Assembly (NCBI RefSeq): GCF_905475395.1
Contig: NC_058341.1
Coordinates: 34,425,501-34,489,500 of the forward strand
Reading direction: 5' to 3'
DNA length: 64,000 nt
Origin: Chrysoperla carnea
Lineage: Eukaryota > Arthropoda > Insecta > Neuroptera > Chrysopidae
Shown: one piece after another, positions 611-64,000 of the stretch
Position numbering within the stretch: position 1 is the first letter of the stretch
Layout of the letters: every line of letters starts with the position of its first letter
Program-made: the position numbers and the translations under genes
Notes under the pieces: model-generated
Databases searched by the model: none
Told to the model about the DNA's origin: nothing
The model's input: only the letters and a program-made list of their open reading frames with translations

Positions 611-2908
611 TTTAATTTTTATTGCCAATTTTTCATTTAGTTAAACTAATAAAATTTTTCATACTATCCTATCCTATAGAGAATTTTTATTTTAGAATAA
701 AACATTATTTTTAAGTGAAATTTGTATCTCAACTTCAACTGTGCCTCAACTGTCAATTGCTGATATCTCGAGAAACACAATTCGGAAAGGATTTAGTCAG
801 TAGCATCATTTTTAGTGGGTTTAACTTACAAATAGATAATATATTCATGGGCTCTGAATTTTTGCCAGAAATTTAATTATCGATGCAGATAGTATCTTAA
901 TTGATATAATTGCTCTCCCCTCCTGATAAACGACAGAGGTAATTGGATTCACCTAGAGCTCTTGTTTTAGTTGAACGATTCAAAAATTGAGTTCCAGACC
1001 TATTATACTTCGTGCAGCAAATAAATGAAGGAACGAATAAAGATAAGAAATCCAAATTGATGGTTAGAATAAAATTTCCGGAAAATATTTAAATTACAAA
1101 TAAATTGCCTTCCCCACCTTTTTTATGTTTGTTCATATAGGAATTGAAAATCATAAAATTGCTTTTTGAGTGTTCACTACTTGGACTACTATTAAAAAGA
1201 TTAATAAAAATGTTCGTACATTATTAATTAAATTTAATAGATGCCTTTTTAAAATAAACGGCGGAAGTTCAAACAAGTCAGTTGATGGTTGCACTTGTTA
1301 ATTTTTATACCATGCATATGTAATATGCAAGGTATACTAAGTTTAGTCCCAAGTTTGTAACACTTAAAAATATTGATGCTACGCACAAAATTTTGGTATC
1401 GTATCGGTTTTCATAAAATCACCTAATTAGTCCAATTCCGGTTGTCCGTCCGTCCGTCTGTGGACACGATAACTGAAAAACGAACAAAGATATCAACCTG
1501 AAATTTTTACAGTGTACTCGGGAACATAGGTCAATTGGCTCTTGGGTCCGTTGGAGCCATCTTGTAAACCGTTAGAGAAACTACAAAAGTTTAAATATAA
1601 AAAATAAACAACTTTTGTTTGAAACATTTTTTTGTAAACGCCACTGTTTACTCACGAGGGCACACATCAGATGCAAATGTTAAGTATAGTACGTATTAAT
1701 ATGGAATTATCAGTTATGTATGTGTGACATGTATATGTGTAATGTGATAGAGTAATCGATACTGTCTATGCATGGTATTTCAACAGTTAACTCAGTCAAT
1801 TGTTTGTTTTCCTTTGTATTCTCAATATTTTTATATTTTTAATGACTATAGATATAAATTATAATAATAATTTTAATTATGTATACTAACAATAAGTTTA
1901 AAACGCAATTCATTGTTAATATAACTAATTAATAGTTAAGATGATAATAATCATGTGATGTATTAATTATATTTTGGTATTCGTTTGACATTATTACATA
2001 TTGTAATATTCTTTTCCTATGTATTCCGATTTCATTCTTCACATTGTTTGAAATATTTTTCGAGTCCTGAATTAATTTGGACAAGCCGAACAAACGCTGA
2101 TATTTTTGCACTTATTTTAAGAGTTGATACCTCTCGGAAAAAGCTAGAAAATCACAAAACGTTTATTGTTTCGGAATTTGATTAAATTTGGCATATTTGA
2201 GGGTAATTTTGTCCCGTAAAATATGAAAATGGGGTTCATGTAACGATTGAATGAGAAGTTTGGGTATATTATCGTATAGTATCTTGCAAAAGTCGTATAG
2301 AAGTTTTTGTTTCGGAGCGATTTTGAAGATTTAACAACTTTTTGAAGTATGGTCTGAAAAATTTGACAGGGATAAAAACCTTCGTATATATGGCGATATA
2401 AAAAATATATTAGACAAATTTTTTTAAAAATTTTGGTGACGGGTGACGATAAATCGAGTTTATTTCATTCTTGGTCCAGTAGTTTCCGAGATATCGTCTG
2501 AATTCGTATTCTGATATGTCGAACGCTATGAATCCAGTGGTCAAACTTAATTGAGAAGATCAAATTTTATTTCGAATATCTTTCTCTGAAATTTTAGTTT
2601 ATTGTTCACATGGAAACTTACAATCTGATAATCTAAGTGACGTTCCAAGACTCGCCTGCTTTCTTTTTATTCTTAATTATATAAGTTTTATCTTCGTTAC
2701 TTTTGTAAACATTTCCAAAATTCTTTAACTTCTAATTTTAAAATATAAAATTGGCATTTTTTGAATTAAAAAAGAACTTTTGTTAATTCCGTATTCACTT
2801 TCTAAATTGTGTAACGATTACGAAACCTTATTTTATCGGTGTTTCAACGTTTTCTTATCCGAGATGTCAGAATTCAAAATCAGCGATTGAAAATAGACCA
2901 CAAGAAAG
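611..2908. other. intergenic stretch with one dispersed repeat
   Basis: No gene is supported here. The recognisable content is one copy of the palindrome-headed repeat at about 1302-1815. The remainder, including 2180-2640 with its transposon-like wording, shows no reading frame worth calling. Confidence 0.5.
1302..1815 (+). repeat. palindrome-headed dispersed repeat, copy A
   Basis: One of seven copies in the window. It starts with a near-palindrome around CCATGCATATG / ATGCAAGGTAT. It then has the shared block GTTTGTAACACTTAAAAA, a TCCG/TCTG-rich segment near 1440-1465 and the block CTTGTAAACCGTTAGAGA. It ends in a conserved tail around TCAGTCAATTGTTTG. No coding capacity is visible, so it looks like a non-autonomous mobile element of unknown class. 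Confidence 0.75.
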
Positions 2909-4198
2909 ATGTTCAATTATATGAAAAATGTTCTTTATAGTTTGGTAGATGCAGATGAAGAGGCGAAATTAAGCAGAGTAACTGTAACTCGTTTAATTGG
3001 GAAAAAAATTAATACATTCAAATTTACTTTAATCGAATATGAGAATGAACCAATATTTCCAAATAGTAAATTTATCGAACCGGAATCACTTTACCAACGA
3101 TTGAAGATAAAAATGAAACGATTAACTCCAGAAGCAGCAGAAGAAACATTTACTTTCTTATACAAAATAGAAGTAAATATTTCAAAAAATACACCATTTA
3201 CCAAAATTTTAAATCAACACAATGCAATTACAAAAGAAGGGCGATTTTTTAAGAAATTAAAAGAACATGCAAAAATTTTACCGCTATGTATACCAAAAAT
3301 GAGAGAAGCAACTTCAACGCATATTATATTAGAGGATGATTTTGAACATTTTGAAATTTGTCGTGCAAATTGGTACGGTATTAAACATTTTCAAATTGTT
3401 TTGGAAACAATAGCCGAATTTCATGCATTTAGTTTTCATATAAAAAAGTTACATGAACGAAAACGAATGCGACCATTTGCAGATGCAAATCGATTTGTGA
3501 ATGATGAAATTTTTTATAATAAAAAATATGCAATTACTCGAAGATTGCAAAGACAAGAATTTCATAGTCATATGTTTTTAATTGATCAATTAAATGAGAC
3601 GGAATCGTTGCGGAACGATATTAAATTGTTATTTCGAAGAAAATATGATGGATTTTATTATGATTTAAAAAGTGTGAGTCATACGTTCAACGTTTTCTCA
3701 TATTGTGATCCATGGGCAGGGGATAATTTAATGTTTGAATATCAGTTTGGATCGGTGAAATCGTGCCGATTATTGGACTTTAAATTTATTCGGTATTTAC
3801 CCCCATCTCATGATGTCTTAAGTGTTATTTATTATAATTCGACAAAGAAATTCCGAAAAGAATGTTATGTAACATTATTGAATTATTATTACGAACAATT
3901 ATCGGAACGTTTAAAAGCATATAAATATGATCCAAAAGAAATTTATCCAAGAGATGCATTTGATAAAGCATGTTCGGATCGCTTATTAACTATTTTATTT
4001 TATAATATTAATTATAAGGTGATTGCGTTGCTTGGTCCAAAAAAATTTAATGAACATTTTAAAGATAATAGTGTGGTCATTGATTTTTTATTGGATAATC
4101 GTGTCAATCACATTGAACAGTTTATGCAAAAGGATGAATGTTACCGATTGAATATTATAGAGGAATATACTGAGTTTGTATCTGAATTAATGAACTAA
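2909..4198 (+). CDS. divergent EcKinase-like (CHK domain) protein with altered catalytic loop
   Basis: A single-exon gene of 429 residues, close to the usual 400-430 for EcKinase/CHK proteins. The family belongs to the choline-kinase-like fold; some members phosphorylate ecdysteroids, and others are proposed to phosphorylate xenobiotics in the cytosol. Family landmarks are present: E110 in the N-lobe, an LEDD hinge at 141-144, an AEFHAFSF segment at 169-176 and the metal-binding Asp D290 in LLDFKFIRY. The catalytic loop (264-276) is unusual: the standard HGD reads YCD, so the His is Tyr, and one extra residue lies between the Asp and the Asn. It could be catalytically weak, or a non-enzymatic paralogue. 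The start follows a CAAGAAAG context and AATAAA lies at 4206-4211, 8 nt after the stop. It precedes the close-paralogue array on the same strand and is far more diverged than those copies are from each other. Confidence 0.85.
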   Translation: MFNYMKNVLYSLVDADEEAKLSRVTVTRLIGKKINTFKFTLIEYENEPIFPNSKFIEPESLYQRLKIKMKRLTPEAAEETFTFLYKIEVNISKNTPFTKILNQHNAITKEGRFFKKLKEHAKILPLCIPKMREATSTHIILEDDFEHFEICRANWYGIKHFQIVLETIAEFHAFSFHIKKLHERKRMRPFADANRFVNDEIFYNKKYAITRRLQRQEFHSHMFLIDQLNETESLRNDIKLLFRRKYDGFYYDLKSVSHTFNVFSYCDPWAGDNLMFEYQFGSVKSCRLLDFKFIRYLPPSHDVLSVIYYNSTKKFRKECYVTLLNYYYEQLSERLKAYKYDPKEIYPRDAFDKACSDRLLTILFYNINYKVIALLGPKKFNEHFKDNSVVIDFLLDNRVNHIEQFMQKDECYRLNIIEEYTEFVSELMN

Positions 4199-8443: not shown

Positions 8444-11400
8444 AATATTTGTTAAAATTTTTTAATTTAAAATATTAAAGTGAAAATTAAGAAGTAAAAC
8501 GATTTTGTAAAAATATTTATATATAAATGATTGTCAAAAATTTATTGGATCATTTTAATAAAAGCCAGTATTTTTTTACCAAAATTTACCAATTAAATAA
8601 TATAATTTTTACCAATTAAATAATTTTATACTTTTTCTAAAATCCCTTCCGTTATTAAGTGAAATTTATTAATATCTACTGATTATCATTGGCTACTGGT
8701 TATCGAATGGTAGTCAATGAATGAACAAATTTATCAATTTTTGCCACACCCGTATCTCCCCAATTTGACCTCAGATCAAATATGTAAAAGAGTTTTTTTG
8801 TTGCTGTTGATGAGCTTATTTTGGTAAGCTATGTTTCTGCAGTCAACAACAGAACACGGTGTATATATTTATATTGGAATACAGGGCTAGTAAAGGTCGG
8901 TTTACATAAGATAATGAAGAAATATTATTACAAATATTTTTAGAAATATTACAATGCGTATATGACCTTAGTAGTTAAACACGCATTATAATAATAAATA
9001 AATAAAAATATTTGTAAATAAATGTAATCTTTCTCTGTAATTTTTAGGATTGCTTTATCTAATTTCCAAAGAATCATCATTAATCAATTAAACAGAATTT
9101 ACCATTTATAAATATGTCTAATGAAGTCACATGTGTTATAAAATCCCTAAAATTATGCTTGCCTTTTTTAACAATTTTAGAAAAATGGTCCTTTAAAATT
9201 TGTTTTTCTCATAATTCTTAGTCTGTATCTTCCAGGTTGCCCCTCTCTGGCCTATTGGCTGGCGACGCCCATGCTAAACATTCTATTATTAAAAAGTAGA
9301 AAAGTAAGTTGGATTTGAATGCGGTTTTCGCCATTCGATTCGTTAGAGCGCCAGGAAATTTTGTGACCTAATTTGATTTACTAGAAATTAAAAATATGCA
9401 ATTAGCATAATTAATATCCATTTTATAATTGCATTTTAAATTGCCCGTAAATATGAAATTAACAATTCGGTTAATAGTGATGAAAATGATTTCAAACTCG
9501 TTAGACAGGAGTTTTAAGTGCGCTGAACATGAATATCGCGACAGAATTGGTCTCAGAGGTATCTGGTGCTCAGAATGATCGATATCCCTGTCACCTCCCG
9601 GAGTTTTCGAGAAATTCGTTATATAATCGGTTCAAACTCGTTATTCGGGGATTTTTTGGTCACTTTTTACACTTTTGATCTTGTAAACCGTTAGAGATAG
9701 AACAAAAGTTTAAGTATAAACAATGTTCCTTATAAAAAAAAAATTAACAACTTTTGTTTGAATAATTTTTTCGTAAACACTACTGTTTACCCGTGAGAGC
9801 GCAAATTGTATAGTATGTATGTTATGGCTATATCAGTTGTATATGTGTGACATGTATGTATGTGTAATGTGACAGAGTAATTAACACTGTCTATGCATGG
9901 TATTTCAACAATTAACTCAATCAATTGTTTGTTTTCACTTGTTTAAATATGAATTTTCAGTTTCTTTTTTTATTTGTGAAATAATCTCATCTGGATTGTA
10001 TTTGTTTTAATGATTACATAATTTATGAATCTTACTTGTAATGTTACGTAAACCTTTTTCTAATATTTTTTGAAAAACAAGTTTATAAACTTAAACAAAT
10101 AAATAAATAATAAAATAATAAAATAATAGGTATGGGCAATTCTTTGAAAATAATCGATTCTTGGAACGAATTTGAATCAGTTTATCGAGAATCGATTCAC
10201 TTAAAAATCAACTGCAATGAATCGATTTAGTAAGAATCAATCTTAAAAATCGAAAAAATTGAAAAAAATGTTTTTTACAATTATATTTTGCTCCATAATT
10301 TTTAAATTCATAATACGATAAATTGTCTAAAAGATTTTTTTATTTTACTCTTTTTCAAATATAGAACAGTTTTTTAATATTCTTTACAATGTATACATAA
10401 AAAAAAGAGTAAGCAATAGTCATTTTGCGTAGTAGCCGCAGATTCACAAATTCGTCTATAGACGCCACTTAGTTCGAAGAAAGTTGAGACAAATAGGCTA
10501 ATTTTGTCGGTTAATTAAACTGAATATTCGTTTATGATATAGGATGGTGACTCAGAAGGTTGGTTTTGCTGCTTTAGATGAATATTTTAAATTAAAAATA
10601 ATATTCCGAATGCATTGTACATATAAAAAGTATTTGTTTTTATTTTGGTATCATTATAAAGAGGGATCCCTACGCTTAAGGACGTACCAGTACGATATAG
10701 CTTTAAACAGATTAACGGTTGTTTTAATTTTATAAAGTAGATACTACCAGGATAAGAAATGCATGGTGTTTAGTACAATGCTGTTATGTTATAGAGACAC
10801 ATACTTTGAGTATGTATGTTGGCATAAGTATTATTACAGTACCTACATATTGAATGGGGCTCTCCACCAGAAGTATTTTGAGCATCACCAACCTGTATGG
10901 ACCTTACGCCATTGACTCGTCCGCCATAACTATTGCTAATTCAAATTGAAAATAAATAAACTTATTCTTCCTGAAAATAATTCAAGGATTCACTTTTTAA
11001 ATGCGTTCTTCAAATGAAAAAACATTATGCATCCTGATGTGAAAAGTGAATAGCTGAATATTACTATTTTCGAAAGCAGTGATTTTTATAAAAAGTAGAT
11101 AAAAGTAGATAATCTGAAAAAACGGAAGTTATACTCAATTTTTATATATATATTTTTTTTAATGTAACACAGACAATATTTATGTTGCCTAATAATGAAA
11201 TAGTTCAATGAAATTAGTATATTGTTCTCAGGCGAAGGAGCAATATTTACCAAATTGCACAATAAATATGAAACTATTTTTTGTGCTTAATATTTGTATA
11301 CAATATTTTTGTATATCTATGATTATCGCTGCGACCGTCTGTTAATTTGTTACATTATATATAGTTTATACAATTTTAATAACTTATTTGGAAATGTCTT

Positions 11401-12239: not shown

Positions 12240-12415
12240 GAGATGAGAATTAAAATTATGATGATAACATAATAAAAATGTATTTTTATTATGTATCATC
12301 ATAATAATAATGTATTATTATTATGATGATACATAATAATAATACATTTTTATTATGTTATCATCATAATAAAAATGTATTATTATTATGATGATACATA
12401 ATAATAAATCAGTTA
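12240..12415. repeat. alternating palindromic ATAATAAT/ATCATCATAAT array
   Basis: Successive segments such as ATTATTATTATGATGATAC and its complement alternate, so the stretch can fold on itself repeatedly. It lies wholly within the inserted element at 12082-12809. Confidence 0.8.
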
Positions 12416-12442
12416 ATTTTATTTGAATTAGATTAAAAAAAA

Positions 12443-12725
12443 ATTATTGAATTAAAATTATGTACATAATGGAAATAGACAATTAAAATTATGTACATAA
12501 TAAAAATGATTGAATTAAAATTATGTACATAATGGAAATAGAGAATTAAAATTATGTACATAATAAAAATGATTGAATTAAAATTATGTACATAATGGAA
12601 ATATATCGCACGCCGTTTTACTATTTAATATGAATTAAAATTATGTACATAATAAAAATGATTGACTTAAAATTATGTACATAATAAAAATGATTGAATT
12701 AAAATTATGTACATAATGAAAATGA
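12443..12725 (+). repeat. minisatellite, about 31-bp unit, eight copies
   Basis: Eight units share the core TTAAAATTATGTACATAAT. Most have one of two alternating tails, AAAAATGATTG or GGAAATAGA, suggesting a higher-order dimer. A fragment of the element's terminal repeat interrupts the array at about 12604-12631. Confidence 0.85.
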
Positions 12726-13912
12726 TTATTATTATGATGATAACATAATAATAATGTATTATTATTACGATCATTTTTTTCGGACATTAAATAGTAAAAT
12801 GGCGTGCCATAGAAAACAGTGACTATTCAATTTTAAAAGAATATCCGTTCTTTTTTATGGAAATTTTATTTTCAAATGAGATGGAATTAGGTCGAAAGTT
12901 CTTAAAATCAACAAAAGATAGTATAAATTGTATATTTGAGCAAATGCAACCAAAAAATGTTGATCAAATACAAGAGAAATTCAATGAAATATTTGATCGT
13001 ATGCCAGATGAAATAAAACCAAAGGAAAATAAATATCATGTGATTTCGCATGGTGATTTGTGGGCTAATAATATTATGTTTTCCTATGAAAATAATGTTC
13101 CAAAGCAATGTTGTATGGTTGATTTTCAAATACTGCGGTATCTTCCACCTACTGTTGATCTACAATTTTTTTTAATTGTAAACTTTTCACCAAGTTTACG
13201 AGCAAAACATTATCGTGAATTATTAGAATATTATTATCAACAATTATCACAAGAGTTAAATGTGTTTGGTTTGGATTCCAATAATATTTATCCAGAGGAA
13301 ATTTTCGAAAAACAATATGCGGATACAATGGTATTAACTATGACTCTTGCATGCTTGTATAAAGTATTTTTATTAATGCCACGAATGAGTACGTACCTCT
13401 CAGATCCTGGTCACAGTCAGGAAGTTATGTATGGTAATCGTGCGAAATATATTAAAAAAGAATTGGAAATTAATCACGTTTACAAAGAAAAAACATTTAA
13501 AGAATTTCAAGAATTTATTGTATTAATTGAACAATTACTTTAGAATATTTGATAAAATTTTTTAATTCAAAATATTAAAGTGAAAATTAAGAATAAAACG
13601 ATTTTGTAAAAATACTTATATATAAAGGATTGGCCAAAATTTATTGGATTTTTTTAATAAAAGCCAGTATTTTTTTACCAAAAAAATTCTTTACGGAGCA
13701 TATTCTTTTAAGAAATTTAGAGAATATTAAAGGTATAAATATAAAATATATATGTAATTGATTAGTTTAACAAAATAAGTTTTATAACAACTAATTTTAT
13801 CTTATATTTTTTCATAATAAGTTGCATACAGTTATATATTTAATACATACATAATTAAAATTATTACCTACGTCATAAGATATTTTACACAAATTTTTTC
13901 TTTATATTTTTC

Positions 13913-16829: not shown

Positions 16830-18353
16830 AATTTGCATTATCTAAACCTATTTGATTAAATGTACTAATAATTAATGTAATTAAGCGTTAAAATAGTTTT
16901 GTAAAAATTTTTATACAAAATTTTACAAAAAATATTGGGTTTCTGTAATGAAAATGAAATGTCAGTGTTACCAAATCATTTTTCTATTTTTATTTTGTAA
17001 TTTGAGAATTTGTAATTTGGAACTTTTGAGAATTATAAAAAATGTAACATGTTGTAGCCTTTTATAAAAAAATTAAAAAAATAATAAAATTTTTCCAACT
17101 ATCTTATCCCATACTAAAATCTTTTAAAATATTTTAACCAAATAAAATACCAATATGAAACGTTTTAACTTATATTTAGGCAAATATAATTTTATATGAA
17201 TCTTAACAGCTTCATTAAATTCAAAAATTAGCTAGATCTCAATTAGTGAGTAGTAGTCTTTTTATTTTATGGAGATATAATTTCCGTGATTATCACACGG
17301 CAAGACAACCTTTATGAAACAACACGATTGTTTGGTCACCTATTAAGGTTTGTACCTACCTACAAATTAGCAATTTATTGTTAATAAATAATAAATTTTT
17401 AATTCAATGAAACGATCAATGATAAGGTTCTCTTAAAAATTAGTAATTAGGCAATTTGTATGACGTATATGTTAAGTGTTTGTCAAATAATCGAAAATTA
17501 TTGTACATGTATAACGTATACGTAATTCAAGTTGCCTATTTATTAATTTAAGTCAACTTTAACATTAACCGTTCCATTGAGTTAACAATTTATTGTTTAT
17601 TAACAAATAGAAACATTTGCACCACTAACTCATCCGTTAATAGTGATATTTGACACCTAAAAACACATTCCATGAGGTTTTACCAAAATGCGTGCGATTT
17701 TTTTAATTTTTAACCCCCGAACTAAAAAAAAAAGGGATGCTATAAGTTTGACCGCTATGTTTGTGTGTCTCTCATTTTGATTTTTTTGGTCTCGTTTGAT
17801 AGATAATTTCATGGAGAGTGTTCTTAGCTAGTTTTCAAGTGCATGTTTTGGGTTCCATACCCGAAAAAACTAAAAAATTTGCGATGATGTTCAAAATCTG
17901 TTCAATTTGGAAAAGGCTTTAAGAGAAACGGTAATTTAATGGAGAGTCTTCACAGAAATGTTTCAAGTGCGAGTTTAGTGTTCCGCATCCGAAAACTTTG
18001 CCGGTGGTTTTTAAATTTTGTAAATTTCACTTGTCCTTTATTTGTAACATGTTTAACTATACTATTGCTGTAGACAAAGGAAGCAATAATGTATATTGCT
18101 TCCTTCGAAGATACGAAATCCTCTTGTTATCCAGCCTAGGAAATTTAGTTATAATGCCAATTGGATAATAGTGTCTGTTTACCTTAATTTATTATGATCA
18201 TTTCATCGCACAATAACAAACTATTAATTGTATAGAATTATCAAAGGTTTTAAATAAATACTACTGTAGTTGGAAAATAAGCACACACTCTACAACTTTT
18301 CATAATAGAAGGTAGAATATTTAGGAGCGTCTATCAATTTTTAACAAAGAAAT
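16830..18353. other. intergenic stretch between EcKinase-like copies 3 and 4
   Basis: No gene is supported. A dispersed repeat occupies about 17703-18045; the rest is AT-rich and unassigned. Confidence 0.5.
17703..18045 (+). repeat. dispersed repeat beginning TAACCCCCGAAC
   Basis: The head TAACCCCCGAACTAAAAAA followed by GGGATGCTATAAGTTTGACC is a type of repeat start common in insect genomes. It contains an internal duplication: AATTTCATGGAGAGTGTTC (from about 17806) and AATTTAATGGAGAGTCTTC (from about 17934) each lead into a CAAGTG...CCGAAAA segment. Confidence 0.55.
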
Positions 18354-34200: not shown

Positions 34201-37200
34201 CTTAGGGTAGCGGGCTCGATTTCCGCCGTCTCAACAAAATAAATTTAATAAATAGTATTGGTGGGCTGGTGTAGTGCATGGTATATGCATAAAGGAGGTG
34301 CATAAAGGAGGTGCACTCATCTGAAATTGAGAAGCTGATAAATGAAGTTATCAGCGGAAAGGTGGTAAAACACATATATGGTATCACAATGGGCTCTATA
34401 GCCTAAGTGTGTCCTTCGTGGACAGCCAATGTAACCTAACCTATCCTAAGTAAGATGAATACCCGTTTTTGGAGTTCTGTTGCTAAATGACAAAAGTGTA
34501 ATCCTCAAGAAAATTGTACTTAAAGGTTTATAAGAAGGGCAATTGTTTGGAAAAGGATTTGATGATTAAAAGAGCAAAATTAACGCCCATAAAACTTTTT
34601 TATGCACTATATCATGGAGGGGTAATAAAATGAAAGAAATATATATATCAAGTAATTTTACTTCGCCTAAAAAATGGTATGCACAAAATTCTATGCGGAT
34701 GATTGTTATGCATAAGTTAAAACTGCAAATTCGTTAACGTTTCGCCATAAAAGTATTACGGATGGTTTTTCGCGATTTGTTCTAATAAAATCCCTTAAAG
34801 AATAATTTGATTTTACATTTAATAAAGCCAGTGGCCGGTTTTGCTGCACCTTATACATTGTATAATATATACAATTTTATTTAAAAAAATGTTTTATTAA
34901 TAAAAAAGTGTCTTGTTAATTATGAAGAATCGTTATGAAAAATTTTCATGCGCAAACTCAGAATGTTGCCAAGAAAACATATAACTTTTATATAGTTTGT
35001 AAATTGCTATATATGGTTGTTTGACGCTATGATGTCGCGACTTTTCTACATTATTATCATACTTCTGAAAAATATTCTAATCATTATAAATAAAATGAAC
35101 TATGATTCTACAGAAATTTAAAAAGTAGATTTTCTAATAGAAAATATCTAAATATTTTCAAACATTAACACAAATAAATGTCTGTTTACGATGAATTGTT
35201 ATTATAATGGACTTTTCAGTTGTAGCTGAATTTGAACCCTTATTAATTCTATTTTGGCACTATTGATTGATAACATAATAGACTTTTAAAACTGTAATAT
35301 TGAAATGCAGACTTTAATGAAAATAGAAATACATTCATCATACCTGTACAATACTAGTTTTGCCAACAGCCGGTGCACCTAAAAGAATTACTTTAACTAA
35401 GTCCAAGGAATCAGGGCTGGGTTCCACTGGTGTACCAATTTGATTTGTAAGACCACTTTTTGAATTTTGTTCAGCATATCCCAATACACCGCCATCAGTG
35501 ACGCCTGCTGTTCGACCCAGTTCTCTTCTTTCTAAATAGTCCAGGTCCAAAGCTGTAAATCAAGAAGAAAAAGAAATTAATTTCAGTTTTCAATCCATGA
35601 ATTAAAAAAATTAATAATCATGTTTATTACTTGTAATTTTATCATTAATTACATTGTAAAAGAAGTGAAAATAAACAATTGACTGAGTTAATTAATGAAA
35701 TACCCTATATAGAAAATGTTGAATATTAGTGTTGCATTTTCTTTTTATAAATAAGAAGAGTTTAAAAAGCAACACAATTATGGCGAACTTTCGACCGACA
35801 TTTATTTGGTCGAAAGTATTTTCTAGAATTTTTTCCTTTGTCAAGAATATTTCATAATACCACTAATTGAAGCTACCTGCAAATTTTCAACTATCTATCT
35901 TTTATAGTTCTGGAGAAAATAGACAGCAAATTTTGGAGCCTAATTTGCGCCCTCAGGGGTAAACAGTGACGTGTACGAAAAATATTTTAAACAAAAGTTG
36001 TTTAGTTTTTATAAGAAGGTTTATTATAAGGAACATTTTTTTATTTGAACTTTTGTTCTATCTGCAACGGTTTACAAGATGGGTAATACGTACCCAAGAC
36101 CCAATAGACCTATGTTGCTCATTTACGAGCTCGATGGCCCTTTTTACGTTCTAAGCAAGCCTAAAAAAATTTATGCTTGATGAAAGTATTCATATCAAAA
36201 TTATTATTTATTTTTTGTGCATTATTTTACAGTTTCAAAAAAGTTTTTCCATTAAACACTTTTTAGTGATTTTAGTAGTCATTAATAACCAGAGTTACCA
36301 AAAGTTTGAAACACTTTATTCCATAATTTTTGAATCCTCCCCCCTCCATGCCATTTAAGGTTGAAAGTTTTTTTCCAATTTAAAACTATAAAGGATGAGA
36401 TCAGCCAAGAAGCGTTGATAATATTTCCCTTCATTTTTGAATCCTGTCTCTTTTTCCCCAGCCAGGGGAGAAATCTAAATGAGGGCACTCCGAAAACATA
36501 TCTTATTCAACAGAAAAATTAAAATCGGTTCACATTCAGCGTAGGTATCGCGTAACAAACATACATAGAATACATTTTTTGTCGGATTCATGGTGTCAGA
36601 ATTGGAATTGTTAAATTGAACTCAAAAATGCAAACAGTTGATGTGAAATGTTTGGGAAATAGGTGGTGTATGTTTGAAATAAAAAACCTATGAACAGACA
36701 AAACTGATGTATTGGGGGAGTTAAAATGTATTGACATTATTTATCACCATCATGATAGTAATTGTTTATTCACCTATACTAATTCAGGAATAATTTTCAG
36801 CTTTTGACAACTCACAAATAGTTTGGTAAAATTCTACAATACATCAATGCGTCACGTTTACAAAGCTTTAATAAATAATTAGTTCGAATGACCGAATAAA
36901 TGCTATAAAGGCGTGTATAGTTTAGTTTGTGTTTATTTTTGACGCAGAATATATATGCATTTTATCAATTTGTATCTGTTTGTTCTATACAGGACATGTC
37001 AGGCTATAAATCTCATCTCTTTTAAACTGGGAGAATAGTATTAAAAAATAAAAACATTTTTCGATATGAATATGAAATATAGGAATAATCGGTTAAATTT
37101 GCGTTTGTATTGGATTTCAATATAGGAATATTTTTTTTGATTATTCATGAAAATTTTGTAACTAGTTTATCAGCGTCTTACAATGGAGTATTAGGTTTTT

Positions 37201-41900: not shown

Positions 41901-42305
41901 AGGGATAAGTTATTATGTATATAATGGTAAAATCTTATTGAAAAGCCCTGTATAACAAGTACATTATGGGAAATTTTGATGATACTTGAGTACACTATAA
42001 AATATTATGCTATATTATATACGATCAATTTAACATGTAAGAATATTTTATTATAAATAGATGAGTTTTAATTAAAACTGTTAAGTGCTATAAATTAGTT
42101 GTTCTAATTAAAATTTGACATGTGATTTCACTGTAAATACCATTTTTATAGTTTCATTTCTTCTAGAAACTGTAGCAGTTAATTATATTATTAATTATGT
42201 TCAGCTGCACCTATGTTTACAATCATGTTCAACGTCATAACGAGTATTTTCTGCTTCTTAACAAAACAGCAAAATGTGAAAAAATTTAATTTAAATATTT
42301 GTATT

Positions 42306-42905
42306 TTTATACCATGTATATATGGAATATATCATAGTATATTCAGTTTAGTCCAAAGTTTGTAACGCTTAAAAATATTGATGCTACTAACAAAATTTTG
42401 GTATAGGTGTTCATAGAATCACCTAGTTGGTCCATTTCCGCTTGTCTGTCTGTCTCTCCGAAAGCACGATAACTCAAAAACGAAAAGATATATCAAGCTG
42501 GAATTAAAGCGTACTTGGACGTAAAAAGTGAGGTCCAGTTCGTAATTTAACAACATAGATTAATTGGGTCTAGGATCTGTAGGACTTATCTTGTTATCCG
42601 TTAGAAATAGAACAAAAGTTTAAATGTAAAAATGTTTCTTATAAAAAAATAAATAACTTTTGCTTGAAACATTTTTTTGTAAACATCACTGTTTACCCAC
42701 GATGCGAGGGCGCAAATTTGGTGCAAATCTTAAAGTATGTATTCTATTAATATGGGAATATCAGTTATTTGTGTGTGGCTATTTAAGAGTGGATATCTTT
42801 TTTTACTTAAGTGACGTCAAAAAACATACGATTGCATCGTCTATACTGTCTATGCATGGTATTTCAACAATTAATTCAGTCAATTCTTTGTTTTCACTTG
42901 TTTTA
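42306..42905 (+). repeat. palindrome-headed dispersed repeat, copy E
   Basis: A full-length copy with the CCATGTATATATGG head palindrome, the CTTGTCTGTCTGTCTCTCCG segment near 42440, the GTTAGAAATAGAACAAAAG block and the family tail. Confidence 0.78.
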
Positions 42906-50447: not shown

Positions 50448-50892
50448 AAAACAAGTGAAAACAAACAATTGACTGAGTTAATTGTTGAAATAACATGTAT
50501 AGACAGTATGGATTACTCTGTCACATTACGTTTCAAACAAAAGTTGTTCATTTTTTGATATAGAACATTTTTTACATTTAAACTTTTGTTCTATCTCTAA
50601 CGGTTTGCAAGATGGGTCCCACGGATCCAAGACTCAATTGACATATGTTGCTCACTTTTTACGTCCTCAGCACGCTATAAAATATTGATATCTCTTTTCG
50701 TTTTTGAGTAATCATGATGATAGACGGACAGACAGACGACAACAGACATACAACCGGTAATGGACTAATTAGGTGATTCTATAAACACCTATACCAAAAT
50801 TTTTTTCGTAGCATCAATATTTTTAAGTGTAACAAACTTAGGACTGAACTTAATATACTATGTATATTTCATATATACATGGTATACAAAAA
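50448..50892 (-). repeat. palindrome-headed dispersed repeat, copy F
   Basis: The reverse-orientation tail is at 50460-50480, the CTATCTCTAACGGTTTGCAAG block at about 50591-50611, the GACGGACAGACAGACG segment at about 50723, and the head palindrome at 50858-50884. Confidence 0.78.
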
Positions 50893-58291: not shown

Positions 58292-58545
58292 ATATATGCT
58301 GGTGTAATAAAAAATGTCTAGATATATTCTTGAAGCATATTTGTGAAACTTACTTCATATATGAGTGTATCCCACTTTAATGTGTGTACCCGAATCAGAA
58401 AAATCTTATTGAATCAATTTTATTGGAATCAAATAATCTATATCGGGAAAATATTTCTAACTAAAGCAATTTCATTAAAAGGTGTCTCGAAAAGAAGTGT
58501 TGTAATTTTCTAACATTTTTGTACTTGTTTACAAAAAAATTATTA

Positions 58546-59140
58546 TACCATGTATATATGAAATATACATAGTATATTAAGTTTCGTCCCAAGTTTGTAA
58601 CGCTTAAAAATATTGATGCTACGAAAAAAATTTTGGTATAGGTGTTCATAGAATCACCTAATTAATCCATTTCCGGTTGTCCATCCGTCCGTCCGTCTGT
58701 GGACACGATAACTCAAAAACGAAAAAAGATATCGAGCTGAAATTTTTACAGCGTACTCAGGACGTAAAAAGTGAGGTCAAGTTCGTAAATGAGCATCATA
58801 GGTCAATTGGGTCTTGGGTCCGTAGGACCCATCTTGTAAACCGTTAGAGATAGAACAAAAGTTTAAATGTAAAAAATGTTCCTTATAGATAAATAAAAAA
58901 CTTTTGTTTGAAACATTTTTTTGTAAACATCACTGTTTACCCACGAGGGCGTTAAATAGGTGCAAATTTTATAGTATGTATTAATATAGGAATATCAGTT
59001 GTGTGTGTGTTGTGTATTTAAAAGTGAATATCTTTTGTTATTTACGTGACGTCAACACTTTCTATACGATTGGGCATCAACACTGTCTATACATGGTATT
59101 TCAAAAATTAACTCAGTCAATTGTTTCTTTTCACTTGTGT
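58546..59140 (+). repeat. palindrome-headed dispersed repeat, copy G (best preserved)
   Basis: It has a complete head palindrome (CCATGTATATATGAAATA then TACATAGTATA), the GTTTGTAACGCTTAAAAA block, GTCCATCCGTCCGTCCG near 58678, the GTTAGAGATAGAACAAAAG block and a full tail ending CAGTCAATTGTTTC and CACTTG. Confidence 0.8.
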
Positions 59141-59812
59141 ATTTAAACTGTGTATTTAAAATAAGAAAAATACTTTGGAATATGAATAAATAAAAATACA
59201 TAAATAATACATTAATATCGATTTAGAAAATATTTCTAACGATTTGGGATTTTCCTTGACCTAAGAGAGTCCGGTTCCTAACTTTGATAATGAAAATACG
59301 AAATTTTTCGTTATTTGTCTTGGTTATCGAAATATCGAAAGCTAAATAATTAAACAAAATTTTCATTTTTCGATATTTTAAAAATTACTCCACATATCGA
59401 AAAATTTTAATGATAATCATTATGTTAATCATTTACAGTGGAAAAAAAAGCATTAATCATGTGAAATCTGTAAAAAAAACTTTTCGTATAAGAGATTAAC
59501 TACAACATAAATGTAGTAAAAAAACCGAGGAAAAACCTGATATTTGTAGTAGAACATTTTATAATAGAAGCCAAAAATTCTTAATAAATAGGGTCTATGA
59601 ATAGTTATTACTACACTGTATCCGAATGACTTAATGTGTTTCGGTTTAGAAGCATGTGTTTTCGGTTTATACTTATTCGGTTTTCTCACTCAAATCTCGG
59701 ATAAGTATAAACTTTAATTTTTTTTTAAATAAATTTATTAATATGATTTTTTGCAAATCAATTAAATTAATTTGAATACGCATTTATTTTGGAATAAGTT
59801 AAATTTATTTAT

Positions 59813-60026
59813 TCATTAGGTTAATATAATTTTCTCACTGATATTGGTTGTGTAAATTGTATGTATATATATCGGGTCATATGGAGAAGTGGTGAGCGAG
59901 TCCGACTCGAGGTACTAAGATCGTGGGTTCGAAACCCACTAAGGTAAAAAATTTTTTTTTCCCTACGTTATTAATTTAAGTTTGTGTAACAATCCCACAG
60001 GTGTTTTAGTCACTCAAAGTTTTTCA
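59813..60026 (+). repeat. tRNA-like-bearing tandem unit 1
   Basis: The unit runs from one TTCATTAGG to the next. A tRNA-like core at about 59876-59946 has an A-box-like TGGTGAGCGAG and the B-box-like GGTTCGAAACC. An A/T-rich tail containing TTAATTTAAGTTTGTGT follows. It looks SINE-like but is arranged in tandem with unit 2. Confidence 0.6.
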
Positions 60027-60273
60027 TTAGGTTTGTACAGCTTTATCACCGATAATGTGTCTTGATATTGTTTCATCATATAAGAGGTGTCGCAGCTCAG
60101 TGTTAAGCGCATGCGACTCGTAGATCGAAGGTCTATGGTTCAAAGCTCGGGCAAATAAAAATTTTAAATTTTTTCTCTACATTTCATGTTCTGATTTATT
60201 CAAATTAATTTCATTAATTTAAATGCGTGTTAAATTTCCGCGCTTTTTTCGGGTGTGGTCAATCAAAATTATT
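60027..60273 (+). repeat. tRNA-like-bearing tandem unit 2
   Basis: The lead-in TTTGTACAGCTTTATCACCG precedes a tRNA-like core at about 60086-60152 with A-box-like CAGCTCAGTGT, a CTCGTAGA loop resembling a Thr anticodon loop, and B-box-like GGTTCAAAGCT. The tail resembles unit 1. Unlike real tRNAs, the arms pair poorly. Confidence 0.6.
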
Positions 60274-60833
60274 CATTAGGTCAGTTGTGTTTCATCGTTC
60301 ATAGTGGACAGTTGGTTACATTTGTGCTTTGTGTTTCACCTTCATTTGACTTCCAAACGTCAAATTTCATTTTCGAATTTGTTCCTGAGTAAGTTTTTGT
60401 TTTAATTTACATTTTTCTAATTTTTTTTTTTGTACATTGTAAAATTCTATATTATATTTAATTTGTTTCACATTTTGTCCAAATACTTTTTTACAGTAAA
60501 CTTGTAATATTAATTAAAAAAAATTATGTTTGAATCATTTGTTTATTTTTTCCAATTGAAATCACATTCTAGAATTAGTTGTTTTATTATTAGTGATTGA
60601 CTACAAGTATTTTTATTTGATTTCAAAATTTTTCGAGCTTGCGTTTATTCCCAAGAGATTCAATCTCATTTATACAAAATTTATTTATAATAAATATAAC
60701 AAAATGAATATGTACTATGGTTCGATAAAATTTTTTGACGTTAGTGTTATTTTAGATGTAGAGTTTACTAATAAACACACAGTTTTAATATTAATAATTA
60801 TAATTTTTATTTAAAGACGTTCATTCATCAACC

Positions 60834-61328
60834 TGTTTTGCTATGTGCGTTTATATGGAAACAGTATTTAAATTTGAAATAATTTTGAAATTTTATTAAA
60901 ATTTTTAATAATTACTAACTGATAAAAGTTTCAAGTATAGTTATCGATATAATTTTTGAGAAATATCGATTTATATTTTCCATTTAAACCTATGTTAAAG
61001 ATTAATTTTTGTCACTTTTTGAATTTAAAATTTAACATTAATTACGTTTCGATTAATTTATACAATTGTATATCTTTTCTTTCTTAAATCATTCAAAATC
61101 ATTTAAACTTTTTTATCATCATAATTATTTTTATTTGTCTACTTACAAGTCTCATGAATGTACGTCCTTAAATGAATAACTAAATAACTTTACAATCACT
61201 TGAACATTCATAATATTAATGAAATGTTTTAATATTATTGTTTTAATCAACAACTCCGTTACAAACATCGAAAAAAATTCTATCAAAATAATAAATAAAA
61301 CTAAATTTGTATTCAATTGATTTCAACA
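60834..61328 (-). mobile_element. Ty1/copia fossil: LTR, minus orientation
   Basis: A segment with TG...CA ends on the minus strand (TGTTGAAATC to GCAAAACA). It follows directly on a purine-rich tract and a copia-type pol fragment, the expected position of a 3' LTR. The element is broken; no matching complete partner is in the window. Confidence 0.6.
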
Positions 61329-61450
61329 CTCCGCTCAATTCAAACAAAACAGATTCCTATGGACTTAGCAAATTTGTGAAATTTTTGATTTGATAAACCT
61401 TTGGTACAAATATCAGCCAGTTCATTTTTTGTAGGTATATAATCGATTTT
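61329..61450 (-). mobile_element. Ty1/copia fossil: end of pol (RNase H C-terminus)
   Basis: A minus-strand reading resembles the IPT..ELADICTK end of copia RNase H and lies just before the LTR. It is an old, broken remnant. Confidence 0.65.
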
Positions 61451-61505
61451 TTTTTAAATTCTGATCGAATGCAATGTTATTTAAGCTCACGTACATGCGT
61501 GAACC

Positions 61506-61965
61506 TGTTTTGCTACGTGCGTTCATAGGGAAACAGTATGTAAATTTTAAAGAATTTTAAATTAATAGAAATTTTTTTGAAATTCTATTAAAAGTTTAAG
61601 TAATTATTACCTGGTAAAAGCTTGTAAAAAAAAGTATTGGTATCGATATAATTTTAGAAAAATATCGTATTTATATTTTCCATTTAGTCCCATATTAAAT
61701 CTTACTTTTAGTCAATTTTTTAAACTTAAAATTCAATGAAAATAATTCGATAACAGGTTATTTTTCTTGTCTTAAATCATAGAAAATCATTTAAACTATC
61801 GCATTACCATATTGTTTTTTATTTCTCTACTATTATCGTTGACGCATGTACGCCCTTCAATTATTTGGAAATAATATATTTTGAAAATCTAAAAAACAGA
61901 ATATTGTTGCATTAGCTAGCTGCGGTTTGTAAAATGAATGTTTTAATATTATCGTTAAACCAGTA
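61506..61965 (-). mobile_element. Ty1/copia fossil: second, diverged LTR-like copy
   Basis: It is collinear with the LTR at 60834-61328, sharing TGTTTTGCTACGTGCG-like, GAAACAGTAT and TATATTTTCCATTTA blocks. The two differ greatly, so it is old or comes from another element of the family. Confidence 0.55.
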
Positions 61966-62004
61966 ATTTTTGAGGATAATCAATCAAGTATTCAATAAGT
62001 TAAG

Positions 62005-62130
62005 AATTGGGAAAGTAAAAGAAGTAAACATATTGGCATTAAATACCATTTCATTCGATCAGAATTAAAAAAAGATAATTTAAAAATTGAACATATACCT
62101 ACAGAGAATCAATTGGCTGATATTTGTACA
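62005..62130 (+). mobile_element. Ty1/copia fossil: RNase H end, plus orientation
   Basis: The plus strand reads a typical copia RNase H ending (SKHIGIKYHFIR, then IPTENQLADI). It is a broken fragment lying opposite in orientation to the one at 61329-61450, so at least two insertions are mixed here. Confidence 0.7.
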
Positions 62131-62189
62131 TTTACTAATAATAAAATTATTTTTAATTATTTTAATTATTTATCACTAAAATATATTTA

Positions 62190-62500
62190 TTCATTAGGTT
62201 GGTCCAGTTTTACCACCGATTATGGCCGTTTAAATTGTAACAAGCATCAAGTCGTGTGGCAGAGAGTATAGCGAGTCCTACTCCTCTTACACAGGTATGG
62301 AGTTCAAAATCCAGGTAAGTAAAATTTTTATTTTTATTTTCTAAATCTCATGTGATAATTTATTCTTAGTAATATAATTAATTTGAGTGTGTGTTTTACT
62401 ATTCACTACGAATAGCTTATTTATTTGACATTTATCTATTCCCTTCATTTGAATTCCAAATCTTAAATTTCATTTTCGGGTTTGTTTCTAAGTAAGTTTA
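62190..62500 (+). repeat. tRNA-like-bearing unit 3
   Basis: It starts TTCATTAGGTTGGTCCAG, has a tRNA-like core at about 62251-62317 (GCGAGTCCTACTC, then B-box-like GAGTTCAAAATCC) and is followed by CTTCATTTGAATTCC and TTTCTAAGTAAGTTT. Those same trailing blocks follow unit 2 at about 60341-60400, so unit and trailing DNA were copied together. Confidence 0.55.
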
Positions 62501-62530
62501 TGTTAATAAAGGTAAATTAAGATTAAATGA

Positions 62531-63030
62531 GCCATCTTTAATTGTTTATGCATAAATATTATTGAAAATTAAGCAATTTTTAACTTTTATGCCCAGAGAT
62601 ATTTTTGGTTTTTTTCAATTTATTTTACTCTAAATATCAGTTCATTAATTTAAATTTGTAAAATCGGTCTGCCCTATATCCTGAGAAGCGACGTTGACTA
62701 ACTAAGGTTAGTATGATGTTTCTCAGGAAAAACTCGTTCGATTTGTTGCATGTGTTATAACACTATGAGAAATTGTGTAGTCAAAAATCAATTTTTTCTC
62801 GTTATGTCTGTCTATAAGCCAAGCGCCTCGATAGGGGACTGTATCAACTCATGATGTCGTTCAGTCTCATCTGCAACGTGAGCAGTCATCACTTAAAATG
62901 AGTTAGGTATATCTAGACAGATAATGTACGGAAAAAATGATCTTGATTACATGGATTTTTCGCCTGTGTTATAGCCTGTGATATATTGGATTGGTTTCAT
63001 TCTGGGGTAAGTCTACTTATAACTGGGTTG
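62531..63030 (+). ncRNA. structured repeat copy 1 (candidate ncRNA), with 5' flank
   Basis: The core is about 62650-63030, with a 119-bp flank that recurs before copy 3. Complementary arms are dense and nested. CCTGAGAA/TTCTCAGG (62680-62687/62720-62727) encloses ACTAAC-TAAG-GTTAGT (62697-62712). GTGTTATAACAC (62752-62763) is a palindrome. GAGAAATTG pairs with CAATTTTTTCTC (62767-62775/62789-62800). TCTGTCTA/TAGACAGA (62807-62814/62914-62921) encloses AACTCAT/ATGAGTT (62846-62852/62898-62904), TGATG/CATCA and CTCA/TGAG. There is no open reading frame. I could not match it to tRNA, U1-U12, U3, 7SK, SRP or RNase P/MRP signatures that I know. It may be a mobile element derived from an RNA gene. 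Confidence 0.45.
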
Positions 63031-63088
63031 AAAAATTGCCTAATTTTTCTTTTTAAATTTTTTTTATTTTCTTTTTTAAATATATTAT

Positions 63089-63470
63089 TTTAAATTTGTA
63101 AATTCGGTCTGCCCTAAATTCTGAGAAGCGACGTTGACTAACTAAGGTTAGTATGATGTTTCTCAGGAAAAACTCGTTCGATTTGTTGCATGTGTTATAA
63201 CACTATGAGAAATTGTGTAGTCAAAAATCAATTTTTTCTCGTTATGTCTGTCTATAAGCCAAGCGCCTCGATAGGGGACTGTATCAACTCATGATGTCGT
63301 TCAGTCTCATCTGCAACGTGAGCAGTCATCACTTAAAATGAGTTAGGTATATCTAGACAGATAATGTACGGATAAAATGATCTTGATTACATGGATTTTT
63401 CGCCTGTGTTATGGCCTGTGATATTTTGGATTGGTTTCATTCTGGGGTAAGTCTACTTATAACTAGGTTG
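63089..63470 (+). ncRNA. structured repeat copy 2 (candidate ncRNA)
   Basis: It starts 440 bp after copy 1 and differs from it at only a handful of positions over about 380 bp. The one change in a stem, C to T at the start of CCTGAGAA, keeps pairing as a T-G wobble. All other arms listed for copy 1 are unchanged. The flank differs from that of copies 1 and 3. Confidence 0.45.
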
Positions 63471-63696
63471 ATATGGTTAATTCAAATGGACCTTCAGAAA
63501 TATTTATGCATAAAGGTTATTGTAAATTAAGCAATTTTTATTTATTCCTTTTCTTTTTAAAATAATTGAATTTTTTTCCAGAGATATTTATGCTTTTTCA
63601 TCTCCGACATTGTCATTTGTATAATTCTGTGTTTGTGACTTGTAAAATTCATATCCTATCCTAGAATTACCTTTTTTTATCATATCCTATCCTAGA

Positions 63697-64000
63697 ACTT
63701 TCTTTAATTGTTTATGCATAAATATTATTGAAAATTAAGCAATTTTTAACTTTTATGCCCAGAGATATTTTTGGTTTTTTTCAATTTATTTTACTCTAAA
63801 TATCAGTTCATTAATTTAAATTTGTAAAATCGGTCTGCCCTATATCCTGAGAAGCGACGTTGACTAACTAAGGTTAGTATGATGTTTCTCAGGAAAAACT
63901 CGTTCGATTTGTTGCATGTGTTATAACACTATGAGAAATTGTGTAGTCAAAAATCAATTTTTTCTCGTTATGTCTGTCTATAAGCCAAGCGCCTCGATAG
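63697..64000 (+). ncRNA. structured repeat copy 3, cut by the window end
   Basis: The flank from about 63697 and the core from about 63816 match copy 1 with an offset of 1166 bp. I find no difference in the visible 185 bp of core. The remaining half lies outside the window. Confidence 0.45.

Follow-up and report, generated by a model that had tools for sequence, protein, structure and literature searches.

A composite DINE-1/HINE-type element of Chrysoperla carnea with a central array of strand-biased hairpin repeats, perhaps a hairpin-RNA unit

Results

Genomic setting of the repeat array

The stretch of DNA analysed here (the window) comprises 64,000 nucleotides of Chrysoperla carnea contig NC_058341.1, referred to below as C5, from position 34425501 to 34489500, in a genome of 559 Mb. 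A tRNA-Phe gene at 538-610 accounts for the Rfam matches in the window, which are to tRNA only. Ecdysteroid kinase-like (EcKL) genes, or fragments of them, are clustered on the + strand between 2909 and 19583, where six open reading frames match PF02958. The right end of the window is occupied by part of an element of 11,192 bp, which extends from 58538 to C5:34495229 and contains the repeat array described in this report (Table 1).

Table 1. Features of the repeat array and its carrier element, in window coordinates (a slash marks the putative exon boundary)
Feature	Position	Strand	Remarks
Left portion of composite mobile element	58538..64000	+	continues beyond window to C5:34495229
DINE-1/HINE-like unit, 5' end of element	58538..59138	+	own 3' end retained (...TTTTCACTTGTG); composite continues beyond
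Putative first exon zone	62195..62314	+	GC 0.44; ends in donor-like CAG/GTAAGT (GT at 62315); 5' limit chosen by us
Core copy A (368 bp)	62661..63028	+	
Hairpin 1 of copy A	62679..62728	+	holds branch-point-like CTAAC (62698-62702) and acceptor-like TTTCTCAG/G
Putative 280-nt hairpin exon, copy A	62727..63006	+	closed by donor-like GGG/GTAAGT (GT at 63007)
Putative intron, 160 nt	63007..63166	+	T 0.46, GC 0.26
Core copy B	63101..63468	+	98.1% identity to copy A
Putative 280-nt hairpin exon, copy B	63167..63446	+	
Putative intron, 446 nt	63447..63892	+	T 0.44, GC 0.26
Third core copy	63827..64000	+	window end cuts off remainder; complete at 2827-3194 of locus L009

An earlier note on this DNA had described three near-identical copies of about 380 bp. 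These were recovered as cores of 368 bp, the third of which runs past the window end to C5:34489694 and is 98.9% identical to copy A. With no more than 3 mismatches allowed, a 33-base core probe matches the genome 698 times (383 forward, 315 reverse), and a 32-base probe from the opposite core end has 687 (377 forward, 310 reverse). By our count, the first 100 of the 698 matches form 21 clusters on C1, and the genome matches listed fall into at least 64 separate array places; extrapolation from the 698 matches suggests a total of about 150 arrays. Viral contigs gave no match to one exact 23-base pattern.

Across the 17 loci fetched, successive cores are mostly spaced by 440 and 726 bp in alternation, giving a period of 1,166 bp that holds two cores. 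Some steps depart from this; the longer spacing, for instance, occurs twice in succession in L009, L016 and L020, and the shorter twice in L024. Each locus carries 3 to 11 core matches, one of those in L019 being partial, and the loci are dispersed over C1-C6, a pattern other than the long head-to-tail arrays in heterochromatic blocks of a classical satellite.

Structure of the carrier element

Sequence adjoining the array is common to all 17 of the arrays first fetched: each of the 16 other loci matches L009 both to the left and to the right of the array, with just 82 bp on the left within the fetched stretch of L011. The 5' end at 58538, beyond which the flanks differ, is common to the seven copies read there (the window and L026-L031). 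The 3' end lies about 2.0-2.07 kb past the last core in 14 of the 17 loci. The stretch fetched for L018 is too short to reach it, and in L014 and L020 the match is lost 570 and 741 bp past the last core. A right flank is common to L017 and L022; otherwise the flanks beyond the element ends that were reached differ. These boundaries support the suggestion, also made in the earlier note, of a mobile element built on the repeat. Among six arrays of other subfamilies, the predicted 3' end matches in three (L068, L069 and L073) and not in L070-L072. A search for an empty insertion site of the element found none.

The element is a composite in which a complete short HINE is followed by about 3.4 kb of non-coding DNA, the array, and a further 2 kb or so that closes with a second HINE 3' end. 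All six other copies read retain the 3' end of the first unit at an internal position, as TTTTCACTTGTT, which suggests that the composite arose by replication past a terminator. This first unit resembles shorter repeats elsewhere in the window, present as copies or pieces, including those at 1300-1817, 9678-9942 and 42303-42901, and further HINE-like pieces lie within 35663-36181 and 50451-50886. In L019 the element 3' end occurs twice (oriented positions ~2240 and ~6718), each time followed by the same 60 bases, and one of the two stands between the partial core and the remaining array, as though a duplication had carried one copy along together with its flank. Elsewhere within the element, two inverted arms (61404-61484 and 62039-62129; 85% and 91% complementary) lie about 550-630 bp apart. 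A frame of 90 residues ending near 62260, which includes the right arm, is reminiscent of the end of copia-like polyproteins. This candidate was rejected, as the frame has no Pfam match and its one PDB match is weak (E 0.14).

The termini carry features of DINE-1/HINE-type Helentrons. Inverted repeats of the roughly 13 bp typical of subterminal repeats in this family join element positions 7-19 and 11141-11153 (of 11,192), with 11 of 13 positions complementary. They are offset by 6 nt from the 5' end and 39 nt from the 3' end; for mite families the available text gives 2-4 and 38-60 (PMC4067079). A stem-loop (AACAATT...AATTGTT) lies shortly before the 3' end, and the last 60 bases fold at -4.0 kcal/mol. 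Elements of this type insert in TT without target duplication; here the last bases read CTTGTT in 12 of 14 loci, ATTGTT in L021 and CTTGTA in L010, and the 5' boundary shifts by a few A/T. The region 58538-64000 has no open reading frame of 100 aa on either strand, and the longest open stretches in the two parts flanking the array (90 and 85 aa) are without a Pfam match. The repeats very probably form the central array of a non-autonomous, composite element of the DINE-1/HINE (Helentron) type. The earlier statement that the sequence cannot be placed in a known family therefore holds in that no Rfam family corresponds to it, but not for its carrier, which belongs among the already described non-autonomous Helentrons of DINE-1/HINE type that bear tandem repeats in their centre.

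The array itself, searched over 62000-64000, has no Rfam match up to an E-value of 5, and a known structured RNA was ruled out on this basis. The absence of a reading frame noticed earlier is borne out by the joined hairpin blocks, whose longest open stretch on the + strand is 50 residues, as well as by the element part as a whole, and a protein-coding repeat was likewise ruled out. A Pol III gene was judged unlikely from sequence, a run of six T lying inside the core.

Predicted fold and strand bias

Copy A is predicted to fold at -122.1 kcal/mol on the + strand (z -7.38), a stability reached by none of 100 shuffles, and at -75.1 kcal/mol on the - strand (z -1.53). The + strand fold is richer in G-U pairs than the - strand fold, with 25 versus 9 in copy A and 26 versus 6 in copy B. 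With DNA parameters, applied to the + strand only, z is -3.41. The complementary arms reported in the earlier note reappear as a predicted fold of 11 helices, and the long-range TCTGTCTA/TAGACAGA pairing that it pointed out forms helix 5 (columns 146-155 with 259-268).

The hairpin block of 280 nt, taken alone, folds at -89.5 kcal/mol (z -6.18), a long hairpin of the kind expected of an hpRNA. The background was taken from 280-nt windows outside the element, at 209 positions on both strands with 16 shuffles each; 6 of these 418 reach z <= -6, and they come from only three stretches (starting at 12321, 12601 and 17361), each of which contributes its two strands and so folds symmetrically, unlike the array. 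With the same 16 shuffles, block A gives z -8.7 on the + strand and -1.1 on the - strand, and block B gives -6.0 and -1.0. Roughly equal folding of the two strands would be expected of a decayed palindrome, and the strand bias of the array therefore points to RNA. The stretches 12321-12880 and 17361-17640, which fold very strongly whichever strand is taken (z about -7 to -14), are strand-symmetric palindromes and perhaps MITE-like insertions.

Divergence and covariation among cores

Copies 1 and 2 differ by 7 substitutions, at columns 3, 17, 20, 278, 318, 330 and 370 of alignment A1, and five of these fall in predicted pairs. The changes at columns 20 (C-G to U-G), 318 (U-A to U-G) and 370 (U-G to U-A) keep the pair, whereas those at 278 and 330 break it. 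The stem change kept as a wobble, to which attention had been drawn earlier, is thus real but not the whole picture.

The copies had also been described as much more strongly conserved than the AT-rich sequence around them, and this is not borne out between arrays, where the hairpin blocks diverge more than the spacer. Relative to 20 other arrays, the array in the window differs by 2.6% in the 72-bp spacer and by 5.6% and 7.2% in the two 280-nt hairpin blocks. Within one array only the core is duplicated, and it therefore looks conserved there. Core columns 203-227 of alignment A1, the hairpin apex, are among the most variable stretches and occur in a few distinct subfamily versions.

Covariation was assessed in 39 sequences of our choosing, two from the window and 37 from distinct cores. 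These contain 1 double-sided pair versus 0.8 in shuffles, a comparison of little power at such low divergence, and the proportion of paired cells, 95.0%, equals that in shuffles. At pairs 20-67, 82-330, 89-323, 90-322, 109-304, 129-284 and 155-259, changes unpair 11 to 22 of the 39 sequences, and at six apical pairs (helices 9-10) 10 to 36 are unpaired. With double changes not above shuffles, covariation was rejected as proof of RNA. Of the structured RNA proposed in the earlier note, folding energy and strand asymmetry speak in favour, but covariation does not.

Wider comparisons used 184 complete cores from 52 loci, 107 of them distinct; this set replaced an earlier one of 144 complete cores (73 distinct), and partial copies were dropped from both. 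Pair-keeping transitions number 21 versus 7 pair-breaking ones in the 107 distinct cores. Control stretches of the element match this excess in one partition (22 versus 6) and show it only weakly in another (17 versus 11, the sum of 14 versus 7 and 3 versus 4), the first stretch of which contained 2 sequences only, and so the excess in the cores is not used as proof of RNA. Folds of the + strand beat the mean of randomly substituted sequences in 13 of 15 diverged copies, as against 7 of 15 for the - strand; 2 of the 15 + strand cases fall below 0.05, in a set of sequences related by descent. Similarity among the copies is too high to allow a firm structural test either way.

Splice-like motifs at the hairpin ends

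Donors and acceptors were scored with approximate splice matrices. On these matrices, the ten top donors on the + strand of the 11.2-kb element are the site at 62315 (13.8) and nine core-closing GGG/GTAAGT sites (11.7), and the best donor on the - strand scores 9.5. The acceptor is fair (7.7; rank 16-24 of 448 on the + strand), and better-scoring acceptors exist within the same putative introns, for example at 62597 and 63763 (8.3 versus 7.7). On the - strand, a higher acceptor score, 9.2, is reached in the mirror arm of hairpin 1. As read from the sequence, CTAAC precedes the acceptor at a branch-point-like distance. Donor, acceptor and branch motifs thus frame the putative exons in the manner of a spliced non-coding RNA, with a strong donor and a fair acceptor by these matrices.

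The 280 nt between acceptor and donor coincide almost exactly with the long hairpin. By background rates, a donor and an acceptor of this quality would each lie no more than 4 nt from a hairpin end with a probability of about 3e-6, a value from the same approximate matrices and a test chosen post hoc. Among the 107 distinct complete cores, the donor is retained in 106, the acceptor in 104 and the branch motif in 104; the shares of core 9-mers conserved at least as well are 18% (donor), 28% (branch) and 37% (acceptor). Base composition differs along the unit, with GC 0.37-0.44 in the exon zones and 0.24-0.26, with T in excess of A, in the intervening parts. Two junction patterns gave no match to genomic copies of joined exons.

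Discussion

The anatomy of the element is shared in large part with known families. According to the available text on DINE-1/INE-1 and HINE Helentrons (PMC4067079), these too have subterminal inverted repeats, a 3' stem-loop, T-rich boundaries, no coding sequence and, in some, central or tandem repeats. The present element differs from them in being an 11.2-kb composite with a complete HINE in its 5' end, and in a 1,166-bp period that holds two 368-bp cores, a strand-biased hairpin and splice-like ends. In Crassostrea gigas, short satellite-like arrays are likewise spread as central repeats of Cg_HINE; their monomers are, however, mostly of 140-180 bp, and the word hairpin does not occur in the text of that paper as available (PMC7492417). 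DINE-TR1 of Drosophila is a fly Helitron with internal tandem repeats able to form arrays, but its repeat (154TR) is short and unlike the present one, and the accessible part of that report mentions no hairpin or exon (PMC6922343). No Helentron with hairpin exons is named in the titles and abstract openings of the literature searched, a scope within which absence is not proof.

The reading we favour, tentatively, is that the array is a + strand transcription unit of tandem hairpin exons within a HINE-type element. Whether the predicted fold corresponds to a real hairpin RNA from the + strand is, in our estimate, evenly balanced. Such a transcript, which we infer from the anatomy, fold and strand bias observed, would begin with the first exon zone ending at 62314. 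The repeated 280-nt exons would follow, two per 1,166-bp period, with T-rich introns of 160 and 446 nt between them that the splice-like motifs would serve to remove, and each exon would fold into a single long imperfect hairpin.

The likeliest role of a transcript of this form would be that of a tandem hairpin-RNA precursor diced to endogenous siRNAs, by analogy with the Drosophila hp-CG4068 cluster; on that analogy, function as an siRNA precursor may be suspected but is doubtful. The available text on hpRNAs of the hp-CG4068 type describes tandem long hairpins, a common transcript and fast change in copy number, all of which recall the present array (PMC10317233). The same source presents another Drosophila hpRNA, hp-tHMG-solo, as a spliced transcript. 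The systems differ in that hp-CG4068 is a single cluster of 9-20 copies giving Dicer-2-dependent siRNAs (PMC10317233), whereas the present cores number several hundred and have been dispersed by a transposon.

The chief rival to a hairpin-RNA unit, and one we rate almost as likely, is an inert satellite-like central repeat, carried as a passenger of the HINE, its units kept alike by unequal exchange and dispersed by transposition, with a fold and splice-like motifs that have no function. Satellite-like repeats in the centre of HINEs are well documented in the available texts (PMC7492417, PMC4067079), and a passenger of this kind would accord with the absence of covariation, the faster divergence of the hairpin than of the spacer, and the variable array size of 3 to 11 core matches per locus. 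It leaves unexplained, however, the folding of a single strand and the position of the element's best donors at the hairpin ends.

The read-through layout, in which the 5' end encloses a complete HINE, and the exon/intron-like composition could also be understood if a Helentron had taken up part of a host non-coding RNA gene whose exons form hairpins, the captured part now drifting among the copies. Gene capture by Helitrons is familiar and appears in the accessible part of a published account (PMC6544945). We nevertheless consider such a capture improbable: no separate host copy was recognised among the best or first matches listed, beyond which one could be hidden, and an Rfam match is lacking. 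An action of the fold in DNA, with hairpins on a single-stranded intermediate aiding replication of the element, is the least probable reading and appears very unlikely. Elements of the Helentron kind are held to move through single strands, and with DNA parameters the + strand, the strand so analysed, is more stable than its shuffles (z -3.41). Folding as RNA widens this margin considerably (z -7.38), however, and the gain leans on G-U pairs; the array is also absent from the shorter HINE-like repeats in the window.

It is already known that HINEs spread satellite-like repeats, and if the array is inert it amounts to one further HINE with central repeats. If a hairpin-RNA unit is present, a strand-biased hairpin repeat with splice signals would make such elements a means of multiplying RNA genes and would link the dispersal of transposons with endogenous RNAi. 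The element itself is of a familiar kind, but its cargo is unusual and may be a hairpin-RNA gene. A wider proposal, which we regard as rather unlikely, is that a rolling-circle transposon took up and multiplied a spliced hairpin-RNA gene; the many dispersed loci (at least 64 seen, about 150 extrapolated) would encode strings of 280-nt hairpin exons, possibly feeding the siRNA pathway or shielding the element.

As a member of its family, the element would move by rolling-circle replication with proteins made elsewhere, and in its formation replication would have run past the first terminator, taking in the sequence beyond. The Helitron_like_N Rep domain has 64 matches in the genome, several of them in open frames of more than 1,400 aa. 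At C3:3767553-3809834, seven Helitron-like Rep domains stand in one orientation, with five of the six steps between them measuring about 5,813 bp, and this stretch is a tandem run of a Helitron-like element.
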